A stretch of DNA of 44,014 nucleotides from an uncultured Balneolaceae bacterium (lineage in GTDB: Bacteria; Bacteroidota; Rhodothermia; Balneolales; Balneolaceae). The translations under genes and the position numbers were made by a program. Shown here one piece after another: positions 178 to 36,737 of this stretch. The stretch covers positions 1 to 44,014 of the forward strand of contig CALKOA010000031.1 in the NCBI GenBank assembly GCA_938091655.1. Reading direction: 5' to 3'. The notes beneath the pieces were generated by a model that had not been told where the DNA came from, did no database searches, and saw only the letters and a program-made list of their open reading frames with translations. The first letter of the stretch is position 1, and each line of letters starts with the position of its first letter.

Positions 178-777
178 ATGAATAGACGAGAAGCCTTACA
201 AAAATTAGGATTAAGCTTTGGAATTGTAATTGCCAGCCCAGTATTGTTCCATGCCTCTTGTGCAAAAAAATCTAGCACCCATTTTTTTAATGAAATCGAA
301 TTACAACTACTCACCGATACTTCGGATGTAATCATTCCTGGAACCAGTGAGTTACCCAAAGCATCTGATGTTGGGGTCGCAGAGTATGTGGACCATTACA
401 TAGCAGATATCGTCGAAGAAGATGAACAAAAAAATTTAAAGTCATTCATGCAACAATACGTAAGGGCCATTAATCCAGAAAAACCCATCGAATATTGGGT
501 AGAACAAAGTTTTTCGTCGGATTGGGAAATTAAAGAATCCTGGAAAGAAGAAATCAATAACTACGAAAAATTACTCGCTAATGGTTCAGAAGCTTCCATT
601 TCTAACGAAGTTGCGATATTTGCACTCCTCACAAATTTACAATCTCTTATGATACGAGCTTATCGTGGGAGTGAATTGGTTGGCGAACAGTATCTTGCCT
701 ATGACCCTATTCCAGGACGCCAGGTTGGATGCATTGATCTAGAAGAAGCTACAGGCGGTAGAATTTGGTCATTATAA
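178..777 (+). CDS. gluconate 2-dehydrogenase subunit 3 family protein
   Basis: The 199-residue protein starts MNRREALQKLG and continues into a hydrophobic stretch (about residues 12-26), a Tat-like twin-arginine leader of the kind seen on gluconate 2-dehydrogenase subunit 3 proteins; a Cys at about residue 28 makes a lipoprotein possible but the lipobox is poor. The core NEIELQLLTDTSDVIIPG and the later DVGVAEYVDHYIADI are the family signature. Known family role: small helical subunit that accompanies the FAD-containing GMC subunit, often needed for its export or maturation. A GGAG ribosome site at 167-170 overlaps the stop of the upstream GMC gene and fixes the ATG start, so the two genes are translationally close. 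A weak terminator follows. Substrate unknown. Confidence 0.85.
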   Translation: MNRREALQKLGLSFGIVIASPVLFHASCAKKSSTHFFNEIELQLLTDTSDVIIPGTSELPKASDVGVAEYVDHYIADIVEEDEQKNLKSFMQQYVRAINPEKPIEYWVEQSFSSDWEIKESWKEEINNYEKLLANGSEASISNEVAIFALLTNLQSLMIRAYRGSELVGEQYLAYDPIPGRQVGCIDLEEATGGRIWSL

Positions 778-802
778 CTAACAAGAGAGGTTAGATTTTT
801 TC
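778..802 (+). terminator. weak intrinsic terminator after the dehydrogenase pair
   Basis: CTAAC (778-782) pairs with GTTAG (790-794) around a 7-nt loop and is followed by an A and six T residues (796-801). The stem is only 5 bp, so termination may be partial. It separates the dehydrogenase pair from the giant secreted protein gene that starts at 851. Confidence 0.45.
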
Positions 803-850
803 TTTGTTCTTGTATATACTAAAGGTACTTATAATTAAGTCCCTAGAGTT

Positions 851-3800
851 ATGACAAAGAATACTTTTCCCCTCCTTTTATCCTTTTTATTGACCCTATT
901 GTTAAACACCCATTCAAAGGCCCAAATAGTCTATCCTGACAAAGCTGTTTTTGATATTGATGACCTCTCAACTTTGATTGATTTTGAGTCATATAATACT
1001 ATATATCCTGATTATGATTTTGGTCCAGATGCTGCTATTCAGTTTAAATTGGAGTCAGATAGCATTGTAGCTTTTTTTGGCCACAGTGATATTTCAGTAA
1101 AAATAAAAGCTGCAAACTTCGAAGATTTTAAAGATCCTAGCAAGGTTAACATTGAGGTTGACAAAGGTGGTGAAGGCCTTCATTACAAAGGCACAAAAAA
1201 TGTCGATCCCGGATACTATGATTATTTAGTTTGGCCACATACACAAAGCTTTGAAGGGAATGATGGTCATCTTTATGCTATAGGATATGTAGAATTTACT
1301 GGATGGTCTATATGGGGTTATAATACACCTGAATGCCCATCTGAAAATTATAATGCAATAGCTTTTGAATGCTGGATGAGTTCTGCCATACTTGTTAAAT
1401 CGACTGATGGTGGACTAACATGGGACAAGGCTGGTGATCATCCAAGCGAATATGTTGTTGCAACCTCTCCTTACAAATATAGAGAACAAAATAATAGTGA
1501 GAGACATGGTGCATTCCCCCCTAATACAGAAATAGGTAGTGATATGTATGGATTAAAGAAAGTTGGTAATTATTTTTACATACATGTTGAGTTTTGGGGA
1601 GAAGGCTTTAAAATTGGTTCTATAGCACGCACTAATGACATAACAGATGCAAGTAGTTGGAGATATTTTGATGGAGAAAACTTCACAATACCAAATGTTA
1701 ACCCTTATTTCGATAATGTAACTGATCCAGCTAGCCATCTCCCCCCTCCGATTGACAACTATTATCCTCTGAATTTCAATCCCAATAATGAGGCAGTTGA
1801 AGGACTTGTATATAGTACTTTCTTTGAAAAGTATATAACAATAAGACTTAGAAGTTATAGCTTTGCTCCAGAAGTTAAACCTGGAATCTATTACTATCTA
1901 TCGGATGATGGTTTTAATTGGAGCGGTAATGCTCTCTTATTACCTTTTAAAGGTAACTTTACAAAATTTAACTATCCTGGAGATAGTGAACCTTACTGGG
2001 GTATTTGGTACCCATCAATTATAGATCAAGTAACACCTGGAAGTTATAGTGGAGCCATTGGAAAAGATGCATATTTAGTTTATGTAAATCCTTTAGTTAA
2101 CAATGCATGGAGTCCAACTACAAATCATATTAGAGATATAAACTATATTCCAGTTAGTTTTGATACACATAGTGTCTCTTCATTTGAGATAACTCATACA
2201 AATTTAAATATTCCTGAGGATCCAAACCCAGGTGATGGCTATTGTGATAATGGCTACGGAAGATGTTCATTAATTACTGCTGTCACTGAATCTGAAAGTA
2301 GGCCATGGTGGGTGGATTCATCTGTTCCATTAACAATTACAATTGGAGACTCAGCTCCAGATACGTTGACTGAAGACTATTTGGCAAGAATAAAAAAGCG
2401 AACGATAATCGATGGTACAGCACACCAAGATTTCTCTGCAAACATATTAGATATTGAAAATGGTTGGAACGGTTCATATGGGGTTCATATCAAGCCAGGT
2501 TTTGTTTTTGAAAGCGGAGAAGGACATGAATTAAAAGGAATTGATGTCCAAAGTGTAGATGTAGGCGGAGGAGAAGATGGATCTCAAACATCATCAGTGT
2601 CTATTACTCAATCAAAAATAAATACCCTAACACTTAACAATGCACACACTAGCGGTGTGCAAGTTGGTGGTTTTACGGCTGATTCTGCAAATATTATTGG
2701 AGCAGTTATATTCAAAGGTACTGGTAACGTAGTTAGAGGTAATCATATAGGTCATGATGGTAATTCTTTAATGACTAATTATGGTGTTGGTATGGGATTC
2801 ACCAATACCTTAGAATCTAACGTTATAGTGGGTAAGGATAATGGAATACTCATTAATGTTACTAGTGATGATAATAAAATTATAAACAACCATATTGGTT
2901 ATTTGCCATGGTCAAATTCTTCTTTAGCTAATCAAGGTGCCGGCATAAAACTTACAAGTGCCTCAAATAATCATATTGAAGGAAACACAATAAAATTCAC
3001 AAATAGTGATCAAGGTGAAGCAGCGCTCTTTCTAAATGGTGCGAACAATAATAAAATCTATTCAAATGTAATTTCTAACAACGCTGGAATAGGAATACAC
3101 GTCTCAGGGACTAGTAAAGGTAATTTTCTAGGTGATTCAGATAAAGGTAATACCATCAATAGTAATGGCTATGGAGTTAGTTTTTTAGTTAATACAGAGA
3201 CTGGTAATCCTGTTATTGGTAATACAATATTTGATAATCCTAATGGTTCAATCGGACAATATTCTAACATACAAAAATTAGCATCACCAACACTATTTTC
3301 AGCCTATGTCAATAGTACTAATGATAGCCTAATAATTAATCATTCAGGTATTTTCGAAACATCTTCAGAAAATTTCTTAGTAGATATATTTTCTAATTCA
3401 AGCTCGCCCGCTATTCCGCAAGGCGAGAATATTATAAAATCAAAAATGACTATAACTTCGGATGATCTTTCTACAAAGACACTAGCAATCCCCTACACCG
3501 GTTCTTCAAATGTATTCATTTCGACTACTTTTACTGATGATAGACTGGTCACCTCAGAATTTTCAAATGTAGTTCAACTACTTCCCGAAACCTCTTCACC
3601 TAGTGCTTCTTATAGTTTTTCATCATTAAGTGCCGATCATACGAGTAATTGGTACAGCGAGCATACGTTACAAATCACAAATAATGGTTCTACTGATCTA
3701 GTATTACAATTAGAGGAAGACCTAGGATGGGTTAACTTAGATCTTAATTTAGATTCAGATGGTAAATATGTTTCATTCAGTGTTGCTAGTGGAGAAACTA

Positions 3801-7243: not shown

Positions 7244-8440
7244 ATGCCATATACTTTTGACAAAAAAGCCCAAGTGCTACTCCCCCACTACGCTCACTTT
7301 AATGTAGCTAACCGGCTTCTTTTTACTGGCCACTCTCATCAAGCATGGCCCGATGTTGCTCTTGAAGGTCAAACAGAGTACTTCCATGCATCGGCTGAGC
7401 TGATCGATAAAAAATGGGATGTTGCGTTTGAAAAAACAGAGATATTAAGAAGCTATTTAAGGAAATACTACGATGACCCTGATGGACTATATTGCAGAGA
7501 GGAAAGCACTCATTTTTTATTTGTAAGCCTTATGAGTGCGTGGGATTTAGTTAATAAGCCCAAAATCATTACTACTGAAGGAGAGTATTACTCACTTTCA
7601 AGACAGCTAGCACGACTTTCGGAGGTTGGTCTAGAGGTCGTCAAAATACCCGCAAGTGTGGATGAGAGTTTTGTCGATAATATCCGTAAAAACTTAGATA
7701 GTAAGACCTCAGCTGTGATGATCTCACGGGTATACTTTCAAAGTAGTCTTATCAATCCTCATTTAACTGAGATTGCGGCCTTATGCCGCCAACATGGAGT
7801 TCCATTGGTTATTGATGACTACCATGGAACTAATGTAGTGCCATTATCTATTCGGAATGAAGGCTTAGAAGATGCCTTCATACTAATTGGTGGGTATAAG
7901 TATTTACAATGGGGCGAGGCGAATTGCTTTCTTCGCTTTCCTAAAGACTGTACAATTCGCCCGGTGATTACTGGATGGTTTGCTTCATTTAGCTCCCTTC
8001 AGAAAAAACAAGATTTTACTAAAGCCGTTGAATTTGACCTTGGAAATCAACGATTTGCAAGTGGCACATACGATCCAAGTTCTCAATTTAGAGCAGCTAA
8101 AGTAGTACAGTTTTTCAAAAAACACTCCTTAGATCCTGAGGTTCTACGGAAAGGATATCTAGAACAGATTGGGCTGCTAAAAAGCTTATTCTTAGAACAA
8201 GATATCGATCCATCCATCCTACGACTTACCCATAATGAAGATATACACATGAATGGTGGCTTTCTTTCTTTACAATCACCACATGCAGTTGCAATCCGTA
8301 AACGGTTGCTTGAAAAAGATGTATTCACAGATGCTCGGGATACCATACTTCGATTGGGCCCTGCTCCCTATACAACCTCCGAGCAAATCAATGAAGTAAT
8401 AGGCATACTCTCAGAAACCCTCAAAGAAATGAAATTCTAA
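7244..8440 (+). CDS. class V aminotransferase-fold / kynureninase-like PLP enzyme
   Basis: A 398-residue fold-type-I PLP enzyme. GGYKYLQWGEANCFLRFP carries the presumed Schiff-base lysine at residue 219, in the same 'GxYKYLxxG' setting as kynureninase. VIDDYHGTN at about 190-196 provides the Asp that would contact the PLP pyridine nitrogen, and the early FTGHSHQAWPD is similar to the substrate-end loop of kynureninase-like proteins. No kynurenine-pathway genes are nearby, so the actual substrate is open; it could equally be another class V lyase, desulfurase-like or aminotransferase enzyme. No Shine-Dalgarno is evident before the ATG. It is divergent from the kinase gene across a 112-bp spacer and is followed by the 323-bp recA leader region. 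Confidence 0.75.
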   Translation: MPYTFDKKAQVLLPHYAHFNVANRLLFTGHSHQAWPDVALEGQTEYFHASAELIDKKWDVAFEKTEILRSYLRKYYDDPDGLYCREESTHFLFVSLMSAWDLVNKPKIITTEGEYYSLSRQLARLSEVGLEVVKIPASVDESFVDNIRKNLDSKTSAVMISRVYFQSSLINPHLTEIAALCRQHGVPLVIDDYHGTNVVPLSIRNEGLEDAFILIGGYKYLQWGEANCFLRFPKDCTIRPVITGWFASFSSLQKKQDFTKAVEFDLGNQRFASGTYDPSSQFRAAKVVQFFKKHSLDPEVLRKGYLEQIGLLKSLFLEQDIDPSILRLTHNEDIHMNGGFLSLQSPHAVAIRKRLLEKDVFTDARDTILRLGPAPYTTSEQINEVIGILSETLKEMKF

Positions 8441-8609
8441 ATGTGTAAGTAACCCGTAATTAAGAACTCTATAGATAAAAAGGAAGGTAGATATTTTCTT
8501 TTCCATAGGTACCTGATGAGTCTGCTCTCTGCGCATGATAAACACAGATTTAATTGTTCACTTGAGGTTTTACTTGAACCAAAACATCCTATGTATTGTC
8601 ATCGTATGA

Positions 8610-8625
8610 AGAGATTCAAATCTCT
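8610..8625. promoter_or_regulatory. perfect inverted repeat, candidate operator upstream of recA
   Basis: AGAGATT (8610-8616), two spacer bases, AATCTCT (8619-8625): seven perfect base pairs in each arm. It lies upstream of a TATAAT hexamer. Its short spacer favours a dimeric protein site over an RNA hairpin. It does not match the enterobacterial LexA box (CTG-N10-CAG). Function is inferred only. Confidence 0.4.
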
Positions 8626-8675
8626 ACAGTATAAAAGTAGTATGGTATTTACAGTATATTTACATATATTGAACA

Positions 8676-8681
8676 TATAAT
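8676..8681 (+). promoter_or_regulatory. candidate -10 element of the recA operon
   Basis: A perfect TATAAT hexamer 82 bp before the recA ATG. No good -35 hexamer at 16-18 bp spacing is present; TTTACA occurs 22 bp upstream (8648-8653), so assignment is tentative. In AT-rich sequence this hexamer can occur by chance. Confidence 0.3.
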
Positions 8682-8700
8682 AAAATCTCATGAAAATACA

Positions 8701-8717
8701 GTGACATGATGTGTCAC
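8701..8717. promoter_or_regulatory. perfect inverted repeat GTGACA-N5-TGTCAC before recA
   Basis: GTGACA (8701-8706) and TGTCAC (8712-8717) are exact reverse complements separated by TGATG. The site lies about 20 bp downstream of the candidate -10 and 46 bp upstream of the recA ATG, a position suited to repression of the recA operon or to a small 5'-leader hairpin. The regulator is unknown. Confidence 0.45.
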
Positions 8718-8763
8718 CCTAACGGATTACCTTTTGTTAAACATTTAATTTCATCTAATTCAC

Positions 8764-33886: not shown

Positions 33887-36496
33887 CTATTTAACCAATA
33901 ACATAGATCGGCTTTGCAACTGATCATTGACTCGTAATGTATAAAAGTACACCCCTGAAGCCCAATTTTCTGCATTAATTTGGTGTTGATAGCTACCGGC
34001 AACTTTTTGCCCAAATTCTATTCTTGAGAGTTCTCGACCCATGATATCTACCACTCGAAACTCCACATTAGCTGGAGTTTGTAATTCAAAACTAATAGTT
34101 GTATTGGGATTAAAAGGGTTTGGGTAATTGGGGTGCAAAATAAAACCCATTTCCTTTTTATTGAGCTGAGATTCGGCTTCAATATTGGTTGGGGTTCCAT
34201 ATTGAAATCGTGTCCATACGGGATAATGGTCCGAAGTTTCACTTAAATAGTTACCTATATAATTGGGATTCTCCACACGCTGGGTTCCTGCTAACCACTC
34301 GTCCTCTAGCTCTGAACTAATAAGAATATGATCGAGCATGGAAAATCGTGAGTACGATGTGTACCCATTTTGTTCAAGTATTTTGGTAATGATGGTGTAT
34401 TCAGAATCATCATCAAAATTTTTATAAGGCGAAGCTAGATTATTATAAGTGGATTGTAATATTTCGTCATTAAAATCACCCAAGACCATTACGTTAGCAC
34501 TTCTGCGTTGATTATCAAGAAATACTTTTAACTGCCTTGAAGCATTTATTCGTTGATTGTAATCACTTTCTTCCCCAAATGCTTTGGCATGTAAGTTATA
34601 GATATACATTTCCCTAGTTTCCCCATTTATCGTAGCATCGATGAATAATTCCAAGGGGAATCTACCGGCAGCCCAATCGGAGTAATTCATCCCGCTGGAA
34701 ATTAAGCTACTCTGATATACTTTGATGGTTTCGTCTTTATATATGTACGCGGTACGCTGAGTTTGGTCGAATGTAGCCATTATCCCACTAAAACCCTCTA
34801 AGCTTGAAACCAAACTCTCAAATAGAATTGTATTCGATATTTCCTGTAAGCCATAAAGATCGGCATCTATTGTTTCAATTAGTGTTTTGACATTCTGCAT
34901 CTGGAGATTATCATCCTCCGGACCATTAGAAGGATCTCCAAACCACTCAATATTCCATGTTACCACATCGAGTGTATGATTCATGGGAATGGAATCACTT
35001 GGAAAACTAACGGCTTCTACACTTAAGTCGGAGGTGAATCTAGGCAATATCTGATAAATTCCTGCAAACTGCCCTACTACTCCAATCATTTGTATTCGCT
35101 CAGATGGACTCATAGCACCTACTAGCTCACTATCGTTATCGACTCGCATCTCAGAAGATGCTGTTGGGTCTGAAATGGTATAATTGGTATTTCCTTGAAA
35201 GGCCCCTTGATGTTCAATCATCGCATTAGGTATGCTCACGAGTTGCGCTTCTAAGCTTCCAGCATTTACCTGAGCTAAGCTGACCAACTTAGGTTCAGGT
35301 ACCCTAGGCTCAACGTCCAAAATTTCAAAATTAATTGCATTATCCGTATCGGTGGCAGAAATCTGCAATAAAAAATCCGAATCCTCGCCAGCGATTGGAC
35401 GAAATACATTCAGGGGACCTTCAACTACAATAGAATCTCCAATTACGGCAGACGCATGTAAGGGTTCATGATACACCGCTATTCCAGCGGTTTTGTCTTG
35501 AAGGTACAATGGCCCTCCAAATTCGTTAGCTACTGTGACGCGCCCTGCAACTCGTACTCTTGTTCCTAAACTCAAGGCTCTCGCATCCGAGATAGTCAAC
35601 ACATCATCTGATCCAAAAGCTTGTGCTCTAAGCGGTATAGTGAGGGTCATTTGATTGGGATCATTACTACTTACGGTAAGTTCACCTAAAAAATCGCCCA
35701 CACTGGTTGGATTAAAATTCACCCTAAGCTCAGTAGTAGCTTTGAATGCTAAACTGCTGTCTTTCAAAGCATCTATCGAATAACCTACACCCATAACATT
35801 AACCGACTCAATCGTTAAGGTAGGTGTGCCTAAATTGGTTAGCCGAAGTGGAATGGACTTACTACCGCCCTCCACTGTCGGTTCAAAAGTTATTCCATTT
35901 TCTGCGGTAAGTATACTCCCATTTGCGGTAGCTTGGATAGTTTGAGTCTCACTTGCCTCTATAAAATCGGTGATAGCTACATCATCCAGGTTAATGCGTC
36001 CGTCACCAGACTGAATCCAACGAAATCGAATAGGCCCAGAAACCCCTACTTCAATCTCAAACAATTCTAAATCCGTACCCGGTGAAACGGGTTCACCTAC
36101 CGAAGTCCAAGACCCACCTTGATCAGTTGAGTATGCAACTTGCAACGAGTTTCCGGTGTTTGACCCATAGTTTGCACTAACAAAACTAACTACATCCGCT
36201 CCGTCATTCTTATCAAAAAGCATGGTAATTGAGCCCGACTTACCATTTCTGCGATCCATTCGAACTCCTTGTGAACCGTTGAATTTATCGTTACCCAAAC
36301 TTCCTAATAAAGCGTCATTAAAGTACCAAGTCCCAGAAGCTAAATCCACATTAGCACCCGTATAGGAAGCCTTTTCTCCGTCCTCGAAATCTTCAGTTAA
36401 CTGCGCACGCAATGGGGAAACAAATACAAGTAGCAATACGGCCAAAGCTGTGACTCGCAAACTGAATGCGGCGCGAATACTTGGAGATAAAATCAT
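33887..36496 (-). CDS. secreted endonuclease/exonuclease/phosphatase with T9SS sorting domain
   Basis: An 869-residue exported protein. I prefer ATG 36496, which has an AAAGGA ribosome site just upstream and starts directly before a signal peptide (FSLRVTALAVLLLVFVSPLRAQ); an upstream ATG at 36568 would add 24 residues. Residues about 30-180 form a jelly-roll-like adhesion or hydrolase-associated domain, about 200-290 an Ig-like choice-anchor domain (SVNVMGVGYSIDALKDSSLAF), and about 295-485 two OB-like DUF5689-type units (RVAGRVTVANEFGGPLYLQDKTAG). The EEP nuclease core (about 505-765) holds VVTWNIEWFG, ADLYGLQEI, YNLHAKAFG, VLGDFNDEI and ETSDHYPVW, the full catalytic set. The C-terminus is the YPNPFNPNTTISF sorting domain. 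Likely an extracellular nuclease feeding nutrients or phosphate; EEP members also include lipid phosphatases. Confidence 0.9.
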   Translation of the reverse strand: MILSPSIRAAFSLRVTALAVLLLVFVSPLRAQLTEDFEDGEKASYTGANVDLASGTWYFNDALLGSLGNDKFNGSQGVRMDRRNGKSGSITMLFDKNDGADVVSFVSANYGSNTGNSLQVAYSTDQGGSWTSVGEPVSPGTDLELFEIEVGVSGPIRFRWIQSGDGRINLDDVAITDFIEASETQTIQATANGSILTAENGITFEPTVEGGSKSIPLRLTNLGTPTLTIESVNVMGVGYSIDALKDSSLAFKATTELRVNFNPTSVGDFLGELTVSSNDPNQMTLTIPLRAQAFGSDDVLTISDARALSLGTRVRVAGRVTVANEFGGPLYLQDKTAGIAVYHEPLHASAVIGDSIVVEGPLNVFRPIAGEDSDFLLQISATDTDNAINFEILDVEPRVPEPKLVSLAQVNAGSLEAQLVSIPNAMIEHQGAFQGNTNYTISDPTASSEMRVDNDSELVGAMSPSERIQMIGVVGQFAGIYQILPRFTSDLSVEAVSFPSDSIPMNHTLDVVTWNIEWFGDPSNGPEDDNLQMQNVKTLIETIDADLYGLQEISNTILFESLVSSLEGFSGIMATFDQTQRTAYIYKDETIKVYQSSLISSGMNYSDWAAGRFPLELFIDATINGETREMYIYNLHAKAFGEESDYNQRINASRQLKVFLDNQRRSANVMVLGDFNDEILQSTYNNLASPYKNFDDDSEYTIITKILEQNGYTSYSRFSMLDHILISSELEDEWLAGTQRVENPNYIGNYLSETSDHYPVWTRFQYGTPTNIEAESQLNKKEMGFILHPNYPNPFNPNTTISFELQTPANVEFRVVDIMGRELSRIEFGQKVAGSYQHQINAENWASGVYFYTLRVNDQLQSRSMLLVK

Positions 36497-36588
36497 AGTG
36501 TCCTTTAGTTTTTTTAAGTATGAGGTAATATACGGAGAAAGCCTTGCTAAAACTGCAAAAACCATCACTGAATTCGTTCCTAATATTA

Positions 36589-36706
36589 GGTTAAGAAATC
36601 GTAAAAATGCTCAATATTGGTAATCCTATGGTAATAATAGCAGGTGTTTCTTAACCATAAGGTTAAGCCAATTTTACCCCCTAGTAAACTTAGAGTAAGA
36701 TTATGC
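36589..36706. promoter_or_regulatory. candidate Pho-box-like repeat array between two secreted phosphoesterase genes
   Basis: The spacer between the divergent nuclease and nucleotidase genes holds CTTAACC (36650-36656) and GGTTAAG (36661-36667) as a perfect inverted repeat with a 4-nt gap, plus a further GGTTAAG at 36589-36595. On the plus strand TTA/TAA-type half-sites occur at 36651, 36663, 36674, 36685 and 36696, a spacing of 12 then 11, 11 and 11 bp. PhoB/PhoP-type response regulators bind direct repeats about 11 bp apart, and cyanobacterial Pho boxes are CTTAACC-like. Pho control is an inference; AT-rich chance spacing is the alternative. Confidence 0.4.
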
Positions 36707-36737
36707 TGATACTTTAATATCAATAAAAATCACACTT

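Follow-up and report, generated by a model that had tools for sequence, protein, structure and literature searches.

A candidate bidirectional Pho-box region between divergent nuclease and nucleotidase genes of an uncultured Balneolaceae bacterium

The spacer and its two genes

The DNA analysed here, referred to as the window, is a stretch of 44,014 nucleotides (contig CALKOA010000031.1) from an uncultured Balneolaceae bacterium. Its source genome (G000) is a 2.05-Mb draft of 149 contigs, 89.65% complete. The genus of the window comprises nine genomes (G000-G008), among which G001, a 93% complete draft, represents the sister species. Two divergent genes of the window, coding for a secreted nuclease-like protein and for a large nucleotidase protein, are separated by a 241-bp spacer (36497-36737; Table 1). 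The segment originally delimited, 36569-36737, does lie between the genes, but the full interval gives the better bounds. Both proteins end in T9SS sorting tails. The first-pass annotation had placed exported phosphoester hydrolases on both sides; the one is Exo_endo_phos nuclease-like, and the other carries two 5'-nucleotidase modules. The closest named protein match to the nucleotidase comes from Balneolaceae bacterium M30B45 (91%). G001, G012 and G083 share the divergent arrangement of the two genes.

The nuclease most likely starts at the ATG at 36496, as judged from its signal-peptide-like beginning and from the sister species, which has no upstream in-frame start codon. On the minus strand of 36497-36568, a reading MVF.VLA.LSPYI can be followed by eye in both the window and the sister, and in the latter it stops before the nuclease. 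This could possibly be a leader peptide, or merely a conserved core promoter. A terminator reading of the spacer was discarded, as none was found.

Two stretches of the spacer are highly similar in the sister species: 51 of 57 bases are kept at 36647-36703 and 15 of 16 at 36589-36604. Between them, only 19 of 42 bases are kept (36605-36646), and 16 of 34 at 36704-36737. The nuclease leader at 36497-36588 lies beyond the two sites and is fairly well kept too (73/92), which was counted against a Pho reading. A TGGTAAT tandem at 36618-36635 was rejected as a box since it falls in the poorly kept stretch. Within the 11-bp array described below, the changes relative to the sister affect six of 25 linker positions and one of 30 half-site positions (one-sided p=0.029, for a register picked post hoc).

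Table 1. Features of the spacer, its flanking genes and related loci. Coordinates are those of the window unless a locus is named.
Feature	Coordinates	Strand	Remarks
Secreted nuclease-like protein, 869 aa	33887..36496	-	Exo_endo_phos, DUF5689, T9SS tail
Candidate -10 of nuclease gene, TATATT	36527..36532	-	Kept in sister species
Pair TTTACG-N5-TTAACC, proposed Pho box before nuclease gene	36589..36605	-	Includes the third GGTTAAG
Palindrome CTTAACC-ATAA-GGTTAAG	36650..36667	.	Present; CTTAACC 36650-36656, GGTTAAG 36661-36667
Five 6-mers every 11 bp, proposed Pho box before nucleotidase gene	36651..36700	+	Starts: TTAACC 36651, GTTAAG 36662, TTTACC 36673, GTAAAC 36684, GTAAGA 36695
Pair GTAAAA-N5-TTAACC, overlapping the array	36661..36677	-	Best pair score of the spacer
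Candidate -10 of nucleotidase gene, TACTTTAA	36710..36717	+	Nine bases past the array; weak
Nucleotidase protein, 2309 aa	36738..43667	+	Choice-of-anchor I, CHRD, LTD, two 5'-nucleotidase modules, T9SS tail
TonB receptor locus with secreted protein behind	L226:1-453 and 488-3361 (G000 C18)		
Polytopic membrane protein, ~380 aa	L267:4766-5908 (G001 C45); orthologues L284-L288		Behind proposed Pho-box arrays

Direct repeats and their counterparts in orthologous promoters

Direct repeats with 11-bp spacing stand before both genes: five 6-mers in an exact 11-bp register before the nucleotidase gene, and the pair at 36605-36589 before the nuclease gene. Half-sites TTAA, TTAA, TTA, TAA and TAA had been noted at 36651, 36663, 36674, 36685 and 36696; these starts are correct, but the steps between them are 12, 11, 11 and 11 bp, so that the uniform spacing holds for the 6-mers and not for the shorter cores. 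A five-step 11-bp T.A register was found in 0.4% of shuffles and in one of 182 tiles of the window, by a measure defined after the array had been seen. The half-sites of the window alternate in orientation and depart from the canonical nTAACA form introduced next.

In none of the nine genomes of the genus was a PhoU, PstS or PstB detected over the family cut-offs (0/9 for each). The other check put forward in the first-pass annotation, an array upstream of pst/phoU genes in the same genome, therefore has no genes to apply to, and the Pho box was taken from the pstS promoters of other Balneolota genera. Eleven of 15 loci were used; L171 and L167 (pstS start not read), L162 (contig end) and L165, whose promoter has no repeats seen by eye, were left out. 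In these promoters, the box takes the form (nTAACA-N5)n, followed by N9 and, in most of them, by a -10 like TAnnTTTG. Pairs with 11-bp spacing were found automatically in all eleven, and the last pair of each, anchored by hand, made up the matrix. Controls were 121 intergenic promoters from the window and from 20 stretches picked without regard to motifs.

With the pstS half-site matrix, the array scores 3.8, which corresponds to p=0.024 against shuffles and p=0.016 against the 121 controls, one of which scores higher. The spacing of TACTTTAA from the array matches that of the pstS promoters, and this element is not kept in the sister species. On the nuclease side, the best place in the spacer reaches p=0.107 against the controls, which is not significant (p=0.533 in the sister). 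When the pstS pair matrix is run over the 87,994 positions of the window, the overlapping minus-strand pair at 36661-36677 ranks eleventh, and it may possibly serve as a second box towards the nuclease gene. The TATATT before the nuclease start also occurs in relatives within the genus, G004 and G006 among them; being 56 bp beyond the pair at 36589-36605, it lies outside the usual Pho spacing. No conserved -10 emerged from the comparison of the spacer with its relatives, which was counted against a Pho reading.

Apart from these sites, the promoter of a recA-like gene of the window (8430-8763) reaches a five-site score of 6.7, above that of the array. This high value is probably an AT-rich chance match.

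The promoters of orthologous genes carry related sites. Conservation in orthologous spacers, the check put forward in the first-pass annotation, came out in its favour for the nucleotidase, where the half-sites are kept and eight of eleven promoters exceed the 5% control level for the five-site array (G000, G001, EhC07, ih13, G012, G008, G113 and G081; below it are G028, G086 and G114). Near-canonical boxes are present in G008, G113 and G081, of which the last two promoters were found after the matrix had been fixed. In G001, the best five-site place with the pstS matrix differs from the orthologous place. For the nuclease, the same check gave a divided result. The 5% control level for a pair plus -10 is passed by 12 of the 31 promoters; those of the window and of G001 are below it, and no such pair site was seen before four of the six nuclease orthologues in the genus (G002, G004, G006 and G007). 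Three of the 12 passing promoters (G095, G102 and G107) owe their score to a place farther away, and the count of 31 includes two orthologues with wrongly called, unreliable starts (G099 and G112).

Models were also built from the orthologous promoters themselves, with their sites listed by hand and with the nuclease starts of G099 and G112 again unreliable. The nuclease model left out the genus of the window and used the 12 of 25 orthologues with a proximal layout, some of which are not significant alone; the nucleotidase model left out G000 and G001 and used six of nine orthologues. In both G000 and G001, the best matches fall exactly on 36605-36589 and 36651-36700. These sites beat all 121 controls (p=0.008 each), in the case of the nucleotidase with four or five sites in the model; with three sites, the values are p=0.049 and 0.057.

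Regulatory reading of the spacer

On most of the features that could be checked, the spacer behaves like a Pho box, and it is probably a bidirectional, diverged PhoB control region. It is the direct-repeat array, together with its counterpart in orthologous promoters, which makes this the best-supported reading. The phosphate-starvation promoter region proposed earlier is supported as the probable reading, by way of these repeats and not of the palindrome. Under phosphate starvation, a kinase would phosphorylate PhoB, which would bind the repeats head to tail, substituting for a -35 element. The bound PhoB would recruit RNA polymerase and might activate transcription in both directions. The secreted nuclease would then cut DNA or RNA outside the cell, leaving products from which the nucleotidase would strip phosphate.

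Full-length PhoB-like regulators are present in all nine genomes of the genus, none of them over the PhoB cut-off; they remain below the curated NCBIfam threshold (235.5 versus 296.2 bits). The regulator gene on contig C14 of the window's genome is followed by a PhoR-like kinase gene. Its product shares 79% identity over 224 aa with the regulator encoded beside phoU-pstB-pstS in G019, and their DNA-binding ends are nearly identical. A PhoB orthologue thus appears to be present in the window's genome, with a score under the cut-offs. Scores of this C14 type (218-236 bits) occur in seven of the nine genomes and are missing from G004 and from the sister G001, whose best regulator reaches 199 bits.

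The array could instead be the site of another OmpR/PhoB-type regulator, for example those on C105 or C84, in which case the two genes would answer another signal. The genome of the window encodes three full-length OmpR-type regulators, and the half-sites of the window stray from the canonical nTAACA. Furthermore, G001 has C105-like and C84-like regulators and no C14-type score, yet keeps the array; this observation lowers the PhoB reading and raises its rival, although the G001 draft is only 93% complete. Against another regulator, the half-sites fit the matrix from pstS promoters (p=0.016), the orthologous promoters of G008, G113 and G081 carry near-canonical boxes, and both predicted products act on phosphoesters. 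Taken as a whole, control by a different regulator is considered rather unlikely.

It is improbable that the repeats are a product of chance in AT-rich DNA, combined with ordinary core-promoter conservation and no specific regulator. Three observations would suit such an origin: the high score of the recA-like promoter, a register that had already been spotted when it was put to the test, and genome-wide pattern counts at the control level. The two-site pattern with at most one mismatch gave 153 places in the window's own genome versus 218 for the backwards control, and the three-site pattern with at most two mismatches gave 126 versus 123 in the nine genomes. What speaks against chance are the out-of-sample models and the orthologous promoters, as well as the conserved islands with a poorly conserved stretch between them.

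The palindrome had been described as a perfect CTTAACC-N4-GGTTAAG inverted repeat; its letters and coordinates are right, but it does not go beyond chance. The window contains 24 perfect inverted repeats of 7 bp with loops of 3-8, and when the spacer is shuffled 500 times, 19.6% of the results have at least one. With up to two mismatches, the palindrome has five places in the genome versus 14 for its backwards control, and it is thus not a genome-wide operator. A third GGTTAAG, also remarked upon earlier, is indeed present at 36589-36595, but it is no special mark: the sister keeps only GTTAAG there, and the copy belongs to the minus-strand pair. Some 7-mer occurs three times in 38.6% of shuffled spacers, and the count of GGTTAAG itself in the window, six, is close to the expected 6.2. 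Least probable of all, by a small step, is a dyad operator for a local repressor of the divergent pair, as the inverted repeat, while perfect and kept in the sister except for one loop base, is common by chance, not repeated in the genome, and missing from those promoters of more distant orthologues in which the 11-bp repeats persist. The palindrome is read as two half-sites facing each other within the array, and it was not retained as a separate operator.

Several known Pho boxes can be compared with the proposed PhoB region. The Pho box of PhoB/PhoP-type regulators consists of tandem 11-nt direct repeats, which in E. coli lie some 10 bp upstream of the -10 (PMC4415409, PMC1906773). The E. 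coli box and the window share the 11-nt tandem repeats; their core letters differ (CTGTCAT in E. coli), and the -10 of the window is not clear. The cyanobacterial SphR box, CTTAACCT, is made of 8 bp plus a 3-bp linker in at least three copies, some of them degenerate, and it controls the extracellular nuclease gene nucA (PMC1906773). The first-pass annotation was right in placing the cyanobacterial box close to CTTAACC. With its TTAAC core and its nuclease target, the SphR box is the nearest in letters and in target. However, it belongs to another phylum, the Balneolota pstS form is nTAACA, and the copies of the window alternate in orientation. The nearest in lineage is the PhoP of Riemerella anatipestifer, a PhoB/PhoP-type regulator of the Bacteroidota for which DAP-seq gave a motif with the core TTTAACA, thus sharing TTAACA; the accessible portion of that paper presents neither an 11-bp array nor a link to phosphate genes (PMC9603813).

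Among the matches listed in the open-licence literature, there is no paper on a Balneolota Pho box. If the PhoB reading is true, a usable description of one would be nTAACA repeated at 11-bp intervals, with nine bases between the repeats and the -10. A secreted nuclease and a nucleotidase would be tied to it, and the scavenging of organic phosphorus would become predictable from genomes.

Possible further targets in the genus

Since the genome-wide pattern counts were not above control, only selected arrays were followed. Of 22 whose surroundings were read, ten lie before the TonB receptor, a small-protein/membrane-protein cluster or a SusC-like gene. The other 12 comprise three inside coding frames and nine that are elsewhere or unclear. 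In the genome of the window, five repeats (TAACACTGGGG TAACAACAGCA TAACATAAGCA TAACAGGTTGG TAACT) precede a TonB receptor, to which no substrate is assigned, and arrays also precede its relatives in G001, G002 and G007. A gene adjoining the receptor is taken to be ftsH. Behind the receptor lies a gene for a secreted protein; L273:6322-7500, a complete relative of this protein, gave no match in Pfam. In each of four phoB promoters compared, CTTAACAATTTC is present, and among the three tested, the array score exceeds the 5% level in G002 only.

The second kind of locus consists of an array upstream of a 129-aa secreted protein, followed by the membrane protein of ~380 aa (G001, G002, G003 and G007, the last cut by the contig end). 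The array is directly upstream of the membrane protein in G006; in G008 it is upstream of the small protein, and the gene of the membrane protein lies on the opposite strand. This membrane protein occurs in six of the nine genomes and was not found in the draft of the window. It has no match in Pfam, NCBIfam or PDB, and its predicted structure is not reliable (mean pLDDT of 38.7). Its resemblance to PiT permeases is one by eye only, and it is perhaps a phosphate permease.

It is tentatively suggested, with less confidence than the PhoB reading of the spacer, that the genus keeps PhoB/PhoR without Pst and PhoU, with TonB receptors, the polytopic membrane protein and secreted nucleic-acid-degrading enzymes as targets. 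In such a regulon, PhoR would have to read phosphate by another route. If true, the spacer points to a genus that seemingly retains the two-component pair without Pst and PhoU. Plant-associated Flavobacterium strains without PstSABC offer a parallel, in that Pst is likewise missing and the targets are of TonB type; in Flavobacterium johnsoniae, expression of TonB receptors and of extracellular nucleases rises when phosphate is scarce (PMC8115612). Those nucleases belong to another family (pf04231), and the term Pho box does not appear in the text of that source (PMC8115612).

At one further locus of the sister species (L275; G001 C23:150056-150147), two arrays face in opposite directions, and a gene for a SusC-like protein of 1002 aa lies behind one of them.
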